Shown here one piece after another: positions 1,412 to 36,636 of a stretch of 36,636 bases of DNA (positions within the stretch are counted from its first letter, which is position 1; each line of letters begins with the position of its first letter). Source of the DNA: a virus. Position numbers and translations under genes: made by a program. Under the pieces are notes generated by a model. That model was not told where the DNA came from. It did no database searches and saw only the letters and a list, made by a program, of their open reading frames with translations. The DNA is taken from the IMG/VR virus record IMGVR_UViG_3300036853_000216, positions 1-36,636 of that record, one strand, 5' to 3'.

Positions 1412-1612
1412 ATGCAAAATGGACGTGTTAAATGGTTTAACGATACAAAGGGTTTTGGGTTTATTGAGTCACAGGAAAGCGATTATTTTGTACACTTTAA
1501 GGAAATCCAGGGGTCGGGTTTTAAGAGTTTGAAGGAAGGGGAACGGGTGACCTTCGAAGCGGGCGAGTCTCCGAAGGGGCCGGTGGCAAAGAACGTGACG
1601 GTGATACGCTAG
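1412..1612 (+). CDS. Cold-shock domain protein (CspA family)
   Basis: The 66-aa protein is one complete cold-shock domain, a five-stranded OB fold that binds single-stranded RNA and DNA. RNP1 is KGFGFI at residues 13-18, RNP2 is YFVHF at 25-29, and the GRVKWFN start is typical. The length matches bacterial CspA proteins. AGGATGGA just upstream is the ribosome binding site. The gene follows the replication genes and ends 4 bp into the convergent gene at 1609. A role in phage mRNA translation or host takeover is inference. Confidence 0.93.
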
Positions 1613-2016
1613 CCGTGAAGCGCGACGCCGTAGTGGTGATTTGCAGGCGTTGAATAGCCGTGGTCTGAGTTAAAATCAGACAAAGCGTCATCGATGAGTT
1701 CCCGCATCGCGGGGATGAGGTAGCTCGTCACGCCTTCACGCCAGACGCGGTTAAATTCTATCGCCTCATCTTTATCGGTTGAATTAGCAAGATAGCGGGT
1801 GAGTGCTGGGCGCATTTTTGTTTCCCAGCAAGGGTTATCCGCGCCGGTGGCTTCGCTTGCGTAGGCTTCTTCATGGGTTATCAACAGAGCGGCAAATTCG
1901 TGCTGTACAAAATCCGGTAAGTCAGTGGCATCTAGATTGTAAAATACGTCAACGTCGTTGAACTCCGCGTAATGCTCAACACATTCGACGGCAAATTTCT
2001 TGATTATTTTGTTCAT
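1609..2016 (-). CDS. Hypothetical acidic protein (135 aa)
   Basis: This is the last gene of a three-gene leftward cassette. The start is supported by AAGGACATAAT before the ATG, beginning 10 bp after the stop of the preceding 51-aa gene. The product is acidic, mostly helical by composition and rich in Asp, Glu and Ala. It shows no membrane segment or known catalytic motif. Its 3' end overlaps the cold-shock gene tail-to-tail by 4 bp. I do not recognise the family. Confidence 0.75.
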
Positions 2017-2025
2017 ATTATGTCC

Positions 2026-2181
2026 TTATTCTGAGCGTTGGCAAGCTGTTGTGTTTTCGTGGTAGGCGTCACATAGGGGGCACCACACGTCATCATTTGC
2101 TAATACGGGTCGTCCGTTAACCCATTTACTCATGTTTATTCTTTCAAATAGTACCGGTTGTGATATAGTTTTGTTAGACAT
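2026..2181 (-). CDS. Small zinc-finger-like protein (51 aa)
   Basis: A 51-aa frame starting MSNKTISQPVLF has a strong Shine-Dalgarno (AGGAGA, 7 nt before the ATG). The C-terminal half has Cys34-x2-Cys37, His41 and Cys47, which could hold a metal ion. It lies between the 95-aa and 135-aa genes of the leftward cassette. No function is assignable. Confidence 0.65.
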   Translation of the reverse strand: MSNKTISQPVLFERINMSKWVNGRPVLANDDVWCPLCDAYHENTTACQRSE

Positions 2182-2216: not shown

Positions 2217-2245
2217 GGGTTAGAGGTCTGAACCCCCTCTAACCC
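2217..2245. other. Perfect 10-bp stem-loop between small leftward genes
   Basis: GGGTTAGAGG (2217-2226) pairs with CCTCTAACCC (2236-2245) around a 9-nt loop. It overlaps the stop codon of the upstream leftward gene. No T-run follows on either strand, so it may be an mRNA stability or partial termination element. Confidence 0.6.
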
Positions 2246-2526
2246 ACCTTGTTTTCATCCCATTTCCCATTTGTTATTTCATCAAATAAAATGGGTTTTA
2301 TTTTTAAGACACGTTTATCTAATGTTTCTTTTTTGTTTTGCTCTAATTCAATTAATCCCGTGTCTTCATTTATTGAATATATTTGTTTCGGGATGTGTGC
2401 AATAACTCGCATAGAACTTGTATTTTTTTTGTCAATATATTCATAAATTATGATCTCTCTATTACTATTTAACATAGTTGCTTCTACTTTTTCATCACCA
2501 AAAATTGCTAATACTCTCTTTGCCAT
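2239..2526 (-). CDS. Hypothetical early protein (95 aa)
   Basis: The start at 2526 (MAKRVLAIFGDEK) is chosen because GAGG lies 8 nt upstream and because a promoter with an operator-like spacer (2561-2589) then sits just before it. A longer frame to 2592 would run through that promoter. The product is about 95 aa with mixed charge and alternating hydrophobic residues that suggest beta structure. No HTH is seen, so it does not look like the missing repressor. It is the first gene of the leftward cassette and shares its operator motif with the cro region. Confidence 0.7.
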   Translation of the reverse strand: MAKRVLAIFGDEKVEATMLNSNREIIIYEYIDKKNTSSMRVIAHIPKQIYSINEDTGLIELEQNKKETLDKRVLKIKPILFDEITNGKWDENKVG

Positions 2527-2560: not shown

Positions 2561-2589
2561 ATTCTATCAACACTTGTAAGGTATGTCAC
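2561..2589 (-). promoter_or_regulatory. Leftward promoter with Cro-type operator in its spacer
   Basis: Read on the minus strand, -35 is GTGACA (2589-2584), the spacer is 17 bp and -10 is TAGAAT (2566-2561). The spacer contains the 13-mer TCAACACTTGTAA (2567-2579, plus-strand reading), which recurs exactly at 34682-34694 in the cro promoter. Confidence 0.6.
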
Positions 2590-24928: not shown

Positions 24929-25298
24929 ACGTGTTGACCACATAAATACAGTTAATTGGTTCAAGCATCATTTCCCAGAGCTTGAAGATGATTTTCATCA
25001 TTTTGCGAATGAACGGCGTTGCTCTCCTCAAGAGGGGCGAATGCTGAAACGCATGGGCGTAAAAAAAGGCGTGCCCGACTTCTTTCTAGCCTTCCCACAA
25101 AACGGCAAATGTGGGCTTTGGATTGAGCTTAAATCAGGAAATAACAAACCGAGCAAAGAACAGGAAGCGTTTCTCGATCGAAAAACACAGCGCGGGTATG
25201 AATGTGCATGTGTTTGGGGGACGGAGGCGGCGCGGGAAGTCATCAATATTTATCTTAAGGAATACGTTCTACATAGAACAGAATTGAATAGCCTTTAA
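24912..25298 (+). CDS. VRR-NUC family nuclease (128 aa)
   Basis: The C-terminal half shows the VRR-NUC signature: GVPDFFLAF (Asp56), then LWIELKSG (Glu72, Lys74) and KPSKEQEAF. This is a PD-(D/E)XK fold used on branched DNA. Start codons at 24912 and 24915 are both possible; the upstream frame to 24885 would overlap the previous gene. The 3' end overlaps the convergent methyltransferase gene by 30 bp. Phage VRR-NUC proteins are often stand-alone; the role may be DNA branch resolution or exclusion, which is inference. Confidence 0.85.
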   Translation: MMKLRERVDHINTVNWFKHHFPELEDDFHHFANERRCSPQEGRMLKRMGVKKGVPDFFLAFPQNGKCGLWIELKSGNNKPSKEQEAFLDRKTQRGYECACVWGTEAAREVINIYLKEYVLHRTELNSL

Positions 25299-26015
25299 GA
25301 AAACATAAGCAATTTGTGGCACTATAGCATTACCTAAGCTTTTAATTCTGTCCATCCGATTGGGTAACCCATCATTGATTCGCATAAATCCGGCATTAGC
25401 TTGGATGAATTCATAAGCTGACATATTCTGCCAAGGCTTAGGCTTGAGTTTTTCCCATTCTGATTGTAACGCCGCCATGTTCCCGTTTTTGTTTTCTTGT
25501 AAATATCGTTTTTTCCAATCACTTGACCGCACGTCGCATCGCTCGCAAGTACGGTTGGCAATAATCCATAACCTGTCACGTCGGTGCGGAGCGTTCGCGG
25601 CACAAGCTGGAATAATAAATGATTGTGTTTCGTAATTTTCTCTTTCCAAATCAGAGAGGATGTTATCGAGTTCCATTGCCACAACTCCAACAACATTTTC
25701 CGCAACAACCCAATTGGGCTTACAACTTCGGATAAGTCTAAGCATTTCTGGCCAAAGATATCTGTCATCATTAATTCCTTTTTTTTTACCTGCAACGCTA
25801 AATGGTTGGCATGGAAAACCGCCAGTTATAATGTCAACAGCTTGATGAAAATGAAAATTTTTAATGTCATTATGAATAGGTATGTTAGGAAAATTCTTTT
25901 GTAATACCTTTTGACAGAAAGAATCTTTTTCGACAAATTGGATTGTTTCGATACCAGCCCATCGTGCAGCCAAAGAAAACCCGCCGATTCCTGAAAATAA
26001 ATCCAACATTCTCAT
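25269..26015 (-). CDS. C5 cytosine DNA methyltransferase
   Basis: The 248-aa enzyme carries the family motifs in order: I DLFSGIGG (5-12), IV GGFPCQPFSVAG (catalytic Cys69), VI ENV (106-108), VIII RRDRLW (145-150), and a C-terminal LGNAIVP (227-233). It transfers a methyl group from S-adenosylmethionine to cytosine C5. It is short for the family (usually 300-400 aa), so the target-recognition region (about 155-215) is compact. It lies on the strand opposite to the nuclease gene, with no matching restriction enzyme besides that VRR-NUC. Confidence 0.93.
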   Translation of the reverse strand: MRMLDLFSGIGGFSLAARWAGIETIQFVEKDSFCQKVLQKNFPNIPIHNDIKNFHFHQAVDIITGGFPCQPFSVAGKKKGINDDRYLWPEMLRLIRSCKPNWVVAENVVGVVAMELDNILSDLERENYETQSFIIPACAANAPHRRDRLWIIANRTCERCDVRSSDWKKRYLQENKNGNMAALQSEWEKLKPKPWQNMSAYEFIQANAGFMRINDGLPNRMDRIKSLGNAIVPQIAYVFLKAIQFCSM

Positions 26016-34610: not shown

Positions 34611-34656
34611 ATTTACCTCTTTAGTTTATGTACTGCGTCGGTAGTGACGTAAGGCT

Positions 34657-34685
34657 AGAATATTACAAGTCTTGTAATTTGTCAA
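34657..34685 (-). promoter_or_regulatory. Leftward early promoter with palindromic operator
   Basis: On the minus strand the promoter reads -35 TTGACA (34685-34680), a 17-bp spacer and -10 TATTCT (34662-34657). The spacer is almost filled by the perfect palindrome ATTACAAGTCTTGTAAT (34662-34678). This is the place where Cro or CI would bind to block transcription of the recombination operon. Confidence 0.72.
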
Positions 34686-34700
34686 CACTTGTAATAAAAT
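34672..34700 (+). promoter_or_regulatory. Rightward cro promoter with operator in its spacer
   Basis: The promoter has -35 TTGTAA (34672-34677), a 17-bp spacer and -10 TAAAAT (34695-34700). The spacer includes TCAACACTTGTAA (34682-34694), also present at 2567-2579. Its -35 overlaps the palindrome of the divergent leftward promoter, so one bound protein could affect both. Confidence 0.65.
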
Positions 34701-34728: not shown

Positions 34729-34905
34729 ATGAAACCTAAAGATGTGAAAAATTACTATGGATCTCAGTATCGATTCCATAAAATAACGGGCATGTCGGCG
34801 GCCACGCTCGGCAATTGGCTAAAGTGGGGGTATGTGCCGGAAGACGCCCAATATAAATTGGAACGAATTACAAAAGGCGAGCTTAAAACGCAATGGACTA
34901 AATAA
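34729..34905 (+). CDS. cro: Cro-like DNA-binding regulator (58 aa)
   Basis: The 58-aa protein (MKPKDVKNYYGSQYRFHKITGMSAATLGNWLKW in two parts) has the small HTH fold of P22-type Cro: MSAATLGNW is the recognition helix region, and the tail YKLERITKGELK matches the end of P22 Cro. AAGGAGGA is a strong ribosome site. The gene is the first rightward gene from the divergent promoter region with palindromic operators. No CI-like partner is seen on the other side, so the switch may be lytic only, or the repressor is of an unknown kind. Confidence 0.85.
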   Translation: MKPKDVKNYYGSQYRFHKITGMSAATLGNWLKWGYVPEDAQYKLERITKGELKTQWTK

Positions 34906-36375: not shown

Positions 36376-36537
36376 ATGGAAATTGACCTATATGCTAAAG
36401 CTGTCTCACTTTTGGAGGGAGTTGCCAACTCTCTACATGAGCGTGACCCAAAATGTTTAATTTGCTTTAGCACGAATGAAGTGCAAGTCGTAGAGCAATG
36501 GTTAAAAGAATTTGTTAACGAAACAAAAGGCTCTTAG
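36376..36537 (+). CDS. Hypothetical protein (53 aa) spanning the contig junction
   Basis: The ATG at 36376 follows AGGGG; the frame ends at the TAG at 36535-36537, which equals position 26-28 of the window. The product (MEIDLYAKAVSLLEGVANSL) is helical. The stop lies in the left arm of the strong terminator that follows, so this gene closes the cro-side unit. Function unknown. Confidence 0.6.
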   Translation: MEIDLYAKAVSLLEGVANSLHERDPKCLICFSTNEVQVVEQWLKEFVNETKGS

Positions 36538-36636
36538 GGACAATCCAAGAGCCTTTTTATTTTTGCTATTTAAAACGGAGATCTGATGAAAAGATACATG
36601 TTCATTGTATCAACAGCTTAGTAAGCTGTAAATGGG
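36510..36636. repeat. Terminal direct repeat (circular contig overlap), right copy
   Basis: This is the exact right-hand copy of bases 1-127. Removing it closes the circle at about 36,509 bp. The gene from 36376 and the terminator cross the junction without a break, which shows the join is natural. Confidence 0.95.
36525..36559 (+). terminator. Rho-independent terminator (right copy)
   Basis: This is the same 11-bp stem and T-rich tail described at position 16, seen in the repeated right end. In the circular genome there is only one copy. Confidence 0.85.

Follow-up and report, generated by a model that had tools for sequence, protein, structure and literature searches.

Why should a leftward promoter beside the terminase genes of a phage carry in its spacer the same 13 bp as the promoter of its cro gene, and would one regulator read both? 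The question arises in the window (the whole stretch of DNA analysed here, 36,636 nucleotides), where TCAACACTTGTAA occurs exactly at 2567-2579 and at 34682-34694, with no other copy. The initial annotation had placed each copy in the 17-bp spacer of a promoter, and reading of the sequence confirms this: the first lies wholly within the spacer of the leftward promoter P3, with three small leftward open reading frames downstream as annotated, and the second lies in the spacer of PR, where it also overlaps the -35 box of PL (TTGACA, 34685-34680; Table 1). The two sites had also been regarded as distant, which does not hold: a direct terminal repeat of 127 bp (1-127 = 36510-36636) indicates a circular contig of 36,509 bp, so that the sites lie ~4.4 kb apart and flank the rightward early genes. 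The genome is podovirus-like, encoding portal, scaffold, coat, head-closure, ejection and tail proteins. The rightward early unit ends with a cold-shock protein gene (phrog_729, 1412-1612), convergent with the P3 unit, and many relatives have rightward ORFs of 65-68 aa at the corresponding place. Elsewhere, a C5 cytosine DNA methyltransferase gene (25269-26015, minus strand) lies beside endolysin-like genes.

Table 1. Promoters, putative operators and genes of the P3 and cro-proximal regions, with positions in the window.
Feature	Position	Strand	Sequence or product	Context and basis
Third gene of the P3 unit	1609-2016	-	135 aa	Relatives in the P3 units of G003, G004, G012 and G016
Second gene of the P3 unit	2026-2181	-	51 aa, Cys-rich (CPLC..H..C, zinc-ribbon-like)	Relatives in the P3 units of G003, G004 and G012
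First gene of the P3 unit	2239-2526	-	95 aa	No family above cut-off, no database relative
P3, leftward sigma70-type promoter	2561-2589	-	-10 TAGAAT (complement of 2561-2566), spacer 2567-2583 (17 bp), -35 GTGACA (complement of 2584-2589)	Sequence and operator-blind search in relatives
Putative operator O1 of P3	2565-2579	.	TATCAACACTTGTAA, core CAA-N3-TTG	In the spacer; contains the 13-mer
Putative operator O2 of P3	2584-2598	.	TGTCACCACTTAATA, degenerate	19 bp from O1; overlaps the -35
Putative operator O3 of P3	2599-2613	.	TAACAATATTTGAAA	15 bp from O2
PL	34657-34685	-	-35 TTGACA (34685-34680), 17 bp, -10 TATTCT (34662-34657)	Same layout in relatives
Putative cro-proximal operator	34663-34677	.	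TTACAAGTCTTGTAA	In the PL spacer, within a 17-bp palindrome (34662-34678)
PR, drives cro, overlaps PL	34672-34700	+	-35 TTGTAA (34672-34677), spacer 34678-34694 (17 bp), -10 TAAAAT (34695-34700)	Sequence; relatives
Putative cro-proximal operator	34680-34694	.	TGTCAACACTTGTAA, with the 13-mer	In the PR spacer and over the PL -35; 17 bp from TTACAAGTCTTGTAA
Cro	34729-34905	+	58 aa, P22_Cro family (PF14549)	Profile match, fold match

Repetition of the 13-mer is not significant by itself. The window holds 53 13-mers that are present twice on one strand, which puts the bare repeat at chance level, and we dropped it as evidence. The annotated view that the placement in both spacers is unlikely to be chance stands, and the case now rests on this placement and on the conservation of the sites in relatives. 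The 53 repeats, which arise by chance or from gene repeats, and the fact that TGTCAA in O2 is the -35 box itself (TTGACA backwards) would fit a first alternative, in which the shared sequence reflects nothing more than two strong sigma70 promoters whose spacers happen to be similar. The P3 array and the cro-proximal sites are predicted to be quasi-palindromic CAA-N3-TTG operators, and at both PL and P3 one operator occupies the spacer and the next covers the -35. The spacer and the -35 of a sigma70-type promoter are the classic positions for repression by blocking of RNA polymerase. Beside cro, PL and PR diverge and overlap, and the operators occupy the spacers of both, in the window as in relatives, so that tandem operators lie within divergent early promoters; the divergent unit of the window begins with a phrog_2480 protein and a Sak4-like ssDNA annealing protein. 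At P3, O1 comes out as the best match genome-wide, whether searched with the cro operators of the window itself (14/15) or with a matrix trained on other phages, relatives carry an intact TGTCAA-N3-TTG at the 19-bp offset of the window's O2, and CAA-N3-TTG at the O3 offset is seen in L022, L030, L044, L045, L049 and L139 and is absent in other relatives.

The leader of the PL transcript contains a very strongly conserved element (34635-34651), which on the plus strand reads GCGTCGGTATTGACGT in most relatives and GCGTCGGTAGTGACGT in the window. It could fold a small CGUC/GACG hairpin, folding alone being non-significant, and it may act as an RNA signal, nut-like or otherwise. It is absent from phages whose cro region is replaced, e.g. 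G011 and G013.

Conservation in related phages had been named beforehand as a point at which the proposal could fail, and the relatives keep both the operators and their layout. We fetched 16 contigs by way of related Cro proteins and 67 by way of related terminases, and examined the complete or near-complete records. An operator pair with 17-bp spacing lies upstream of cro in 19 of 24 genomes (the pairs of G009 and G015 having been chosen by hand), which fits the predicted binding of Cro beside its own gene. P3 was found upstream of the terminase genes in ~23 related phages. When whole genomes were scanned for pairs 19 bp apart with a leave-one-out matrix of the cro-proximal operators of other phages, the best pair of the window outside the cro region was the 2565-2598 site (18.8 vs 14.1 for the next), and 18 of 28 records had their best pair in the equivalent position, 0.8-3.6 kb upstream of terL. 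When each phage was queried with its own cro operators, 15 of 24 genomes gave the best genome-wide pair between cro and terL, the expectation being 15% (P=2e-7).

Because searches that use the operators risk circularity, we also searched for the promoter blind to them, by locating the first rightward gene upstream of the terminase genes (the 61-aa family) and taking the best leftward -35/-10 upstream of it. The operator-blind site coincided with the operator-derived site in 22 genomes, and the consensus at the syntenic place in relatives is TTGACA-17-(T/C)ATANT. Across these 22 genomes, the P3 spacer agrees with the phage's own cro operators at 10.27 positions and with those of other phages at 8.48, an excess that 0/200,000 permutations reached (p about 5e-6), and a control taken from downstream of the P3 -10 gave no own-operator excess (p=0.99). 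In a wider set of 54 terL loci, many of them incomplete, the spacer of the best leftward promoter contains CAA-N3-TTG in 25. A spacer is free of sigma70 constraint, and both this count and the closer match to a phage's own operators argue against two strong promoters with spacers similar by chance. The layout recurs in BMAG01000039.1 (L139), an independent contig that comes from a bacterial genome project and bears the label Gammaproteobacteria bacterium BBSC-SA01, which suggests a gammaproteobacterial host; it carries the cro operators and, at P3, three operators at 19- and 15-bp spacing. G018 has P3-type operators and none recognisable beside its cro, and G025, G027 and G029 have no clear operator pair at P3.

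The 61-aa protein used in this search (VKDYT.ADGDEGNTHYNGVPS; 2701-2886 in the window) heads the rightward terminase unit in 28/28 records examined and had no match in PHROGs, Pfam or NCBIfam. By terL, the named phages that come closest are Pseudoalteromonas H6/1 and Vibrio 1.182.O, at an identity of only 42-43%. H6/1 gave a marginal Cro-profile match (E=0.005), 1.182.O was judged for Cro by annotation alone, and neither served as a reference. Annotation of their early regions (L140 / L141) lists HTH and antitermination-like proteins and an Arc-type protein; with such different early regulators annotated there, the arrangement around Cro may be confined to the present uncultivated group.

The strongest sign of one sequence-specific regulator for both regions comes from four phages, G013, G011, G008 and G015, in which the operators are altered at cro and at P3 alike. 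G013 carries TAGCAATAGTTGC and TAGCAATAATTGCTA, 17 bp apart, at both places. In G011, the cro-proximal form is TGGG-N7-CCCA, and TGGCCAGACTGCCCA falls exactly within the spacer of P3 (leftward TTGACA-17-TATCAT), the P3 spacer TGGGCAGTCTGGCCA having been replaced in step with the cro-proximal TGGGCAGTGTGCCCA. The corresponding sequences beside cro and at P3 are TGTCAATGCTCGACA and TGTCAAGAGTCGACA in G008, and GTACAAGTCCTTG and GTACAAGTACTTG in G015. The P3 sites of these four phages were first spotted with their own operators, and the operator-blind search later chose the same sites. Replacement of the spacer in step with the cro operators, as in G011 and G013, is hard to reconcile with chance similarity between promoters, a reading to which we give very little credence. 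The matrix, own-operator and operator-blind searches and the covariation thus support the proposal, made in the initial annotation, that a single regulator would control units on both sides of the early region.

Several observations point to Cro as that regulator. The cro gene stands immediately downstream of the cro-proximal operators in the window, and operators lie directly ahead of a Cro-family gene in nearly all of 24 genomes. The window's protein matches PF14549 with 34.1 bits (cut-off 30.2) over residues 2-55, and P22 Cro (1rzs) was matched with the family profile at E=1.2e-5. Its AlphaFold model (pLDDT 89.7) has four helices and aligns with the N15 Cro-DNA structure 6on0 at a TM of 0.92 and with P22 Cro 1rzs at 0.78. 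It is suggestive that changes in the recognition helix (residues 24-33 in the model; HSSLGLW in G008, HRSLGRW in G011) would account for the change of operator, and the correlation between operator and recognition helix, with overall Cro divergence allowed for, is r=0.23 (partial Mantel, p=0.057). The weakness of this statistical link and the many small proteins without assigned function are what one would expect if another regulator, host-encoded or an unrecognised phage protein, read both operator places. A host factor is unlikely, as the operators differ among similarly organised phages; the position of the operators ahead of a Cro-family gene and the failure of searches in 23 genomes to find an S24 repressor or an above-cut-off HTH_3 protein also stand against this alternative, which we judge improbable. 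The adjacent Cro, of P22/N15 type, is the most likely regulator, and by the sequence evidence it would autorepress PR and PL and shut off P3.

The S24 and HTH_3 searches likewise yielded no CI-type prophage repressor gene divergent from cro, and no tyrosine (PF00589) or serine (PF00239) recombinase was found in the 23 genomes. A lambda-type lysogeny switch is therefore unlikely, and these phages could still encode a repressor of an unrecognised kind.

The region to the right of P3 needs separate consideration. The initial annotation had taken CAGTTGTAAG at 2634-2643 for a weaker copy of the operator. It sits between a DnaA-box-like TTATTCACA (2623-2631) and an extended -10, TGATATTGT (2647-2655), after which come a palindrome at 2668-2677 (GGATTAATCC in the window, ATTAATCGATTAAT in relatives) and the first rightward gene. 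The DnaA-box-like TTATNCACA occurs to the right of P3, at <=250 bp, 14 times in 23 genomes against 0.34 expected, and relatives retain the whole block without a clear operator at the place homologous to 2634-2643. Given these flanking elements and relatives, 2634-2643 is best read as part of the rightward terminase control region and probably belongs to a separate rightward control element; we dropped it as an operator, 2584-2598 and 2599-2613 being the better sites. The element as a whole (2623-2677) is possibly a rightward or late promoter, or a replication-related site.

This conserved element adjoins the P3 array, and a rightward candidate promoter, TTGTAA (2574-2579) -17- TATAAC (2597-2602), overlaps it. 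The P3 operators might therefore act mainly on rightward terminase and late transcription, with Cro as an early-to-late switch or a roadblock and the leftward unit as a secondary target. The rightward -10 at the array, however, is poorly kept in relatives, whereas the leftward -35 and -10 are near consensus in nearly all, and several phages have their terminase genes 2-3 kb away. We consider a mainly rightward role unlikely, and favour the leftward promoter P3 as the principal target of Cro at this locus.

Behind the conserved promoter, the P3 locus is, to judge from the encoded sequences, a variable early locus of mostly small proteins that differ between phages. The first leftward ORF in relatives often begins ~30-40 bp from O1. 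A direct search of viral contigs found no relative of the first gene of the window's unit, and the third has none among named phages. Matches in Pfam, PHROGs, NCBIfam and PADLOC were unconvincing for all P3 genes except the first gene of G011, which has a DnaJ domain (PF00226); G018 encodes a similar protein. Families of the unit are marked by F(A/V)xECVxHYA and KWVNGRPVL..WCPLC in the window's clade and by YDLMAEDLDVW and WFDTEQEARFAAIGH in other phages.

A model that accommodates these data is one in which a Cro-like repressor of the phage controls PL, PR and the early promoter P3 through operators at each promoter, and we put its probability at roughly 0.8. On infection, all three promoters would fire early. 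A Cro dimer would bind through its HTH to the pair of operators spaced at 17 bp between PL and PR, and so repress its own gene and the leftward recombination operon. The same protein would bind the P3 pair or triple (19-bp and, in some phages, also 15-bp spacing), shutting off the small, variable gene unit beside the terminase genes. As it accumulates, Cro may turn down PL, PR and P3 at the same time by sterically hindering RNA polymerase. What we observe are the sites, where they lie, their conservation and covariation, and the lack of a recognisable CI or integrase; Cro as the binding protein, repression and timing are what we infer.

In lambda and P22, the rightward early operon opens with the gene for Cro, a small HTH repressor that regulates its own expression via tandem quasi-palindromic operators inside early promoters; Cro also represses leftward early transcription. 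The window resembles these OR-OL systems in the family of its Cro (P22_Cro, PF14549) and in the arrangement of gene and operators. It differs from them in three respects: a single region with two operators serves both PL and PR, the searches found neither CI nor integrase, and ~4.4 kb away, beside the terminase genes, there is a third promoter with operators. In N15 and phiKO2, a repressor has operators next to cro as well as at a second place, OL, which lies upstream of repA; the remote operators are sites for the prophage repressor (CB in phiKO2), and phiKO2 Cro binds only OR3 upstream of cB (PMC4997575). The window shares with them operators at cro and at a remote locus, and a modelled Cro that matches N15 Cro (6on0). 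Unlike in phiKO2, its remote operators correspond to those beside cro, and we recognised no protein of the CB type. In the L5/Bxb1 mycobacteriophages, repressor sites occur at several genomic places with a consensus that varies between phages together with the repressor, and L5-type stoperators are numerous and mostly outside promoters (PMC6550527); they are described as asymmetric (PMC9283540). Here too the operator sequence differs between phages at several places, but the operators are quasi-palindromic, the candidate regulator is Cro-like, and two promoter regions provide the only strong matches in the window (18.8 vs 14.1), unlike a stoperator-type regulon. Phage regulons with multiple operators are thus already known; what is new here is a proposed Cro-type regulon with a third promoter adjacent to the terminase genes and without a recognisable CI. 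We found no description of a Cro-operated promoter of this kind in the open-access subset of the literature searched.

Our analysis turns a sequence coincidence between two sites into a testable regulon. It also provides a natural set of Cro proteins and matching operators, apparently outside the CI/Cro lysogeny setting, in which joint change of specificity in a repressor and several of its sites can be studied. Tentatively, and with less conviction than for the regulon itself, we envisage a widespread phage family without recognisable CI or integrase in which Cro could be the master regulator of three promoters, one of them for fast-changing host-takeover cargo beside the packaging genes. Repressor and operators might then have switched specificity together several times (CAA-N3-TTG, TGGG-N7-CCCA, GCAA-N3-TTGC, TGTC-N7-GACA), leaving a natural series of separate Cro/operator sets, and binding at P3 could also time the change to rightward late transcription. 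The three P3 genes of the window have no known relative in the libraries searched, and the conserved P3 marks a variable early locus in a large group of uncultivated phages, a place in which to seek host-takeover or anti-defence genes.
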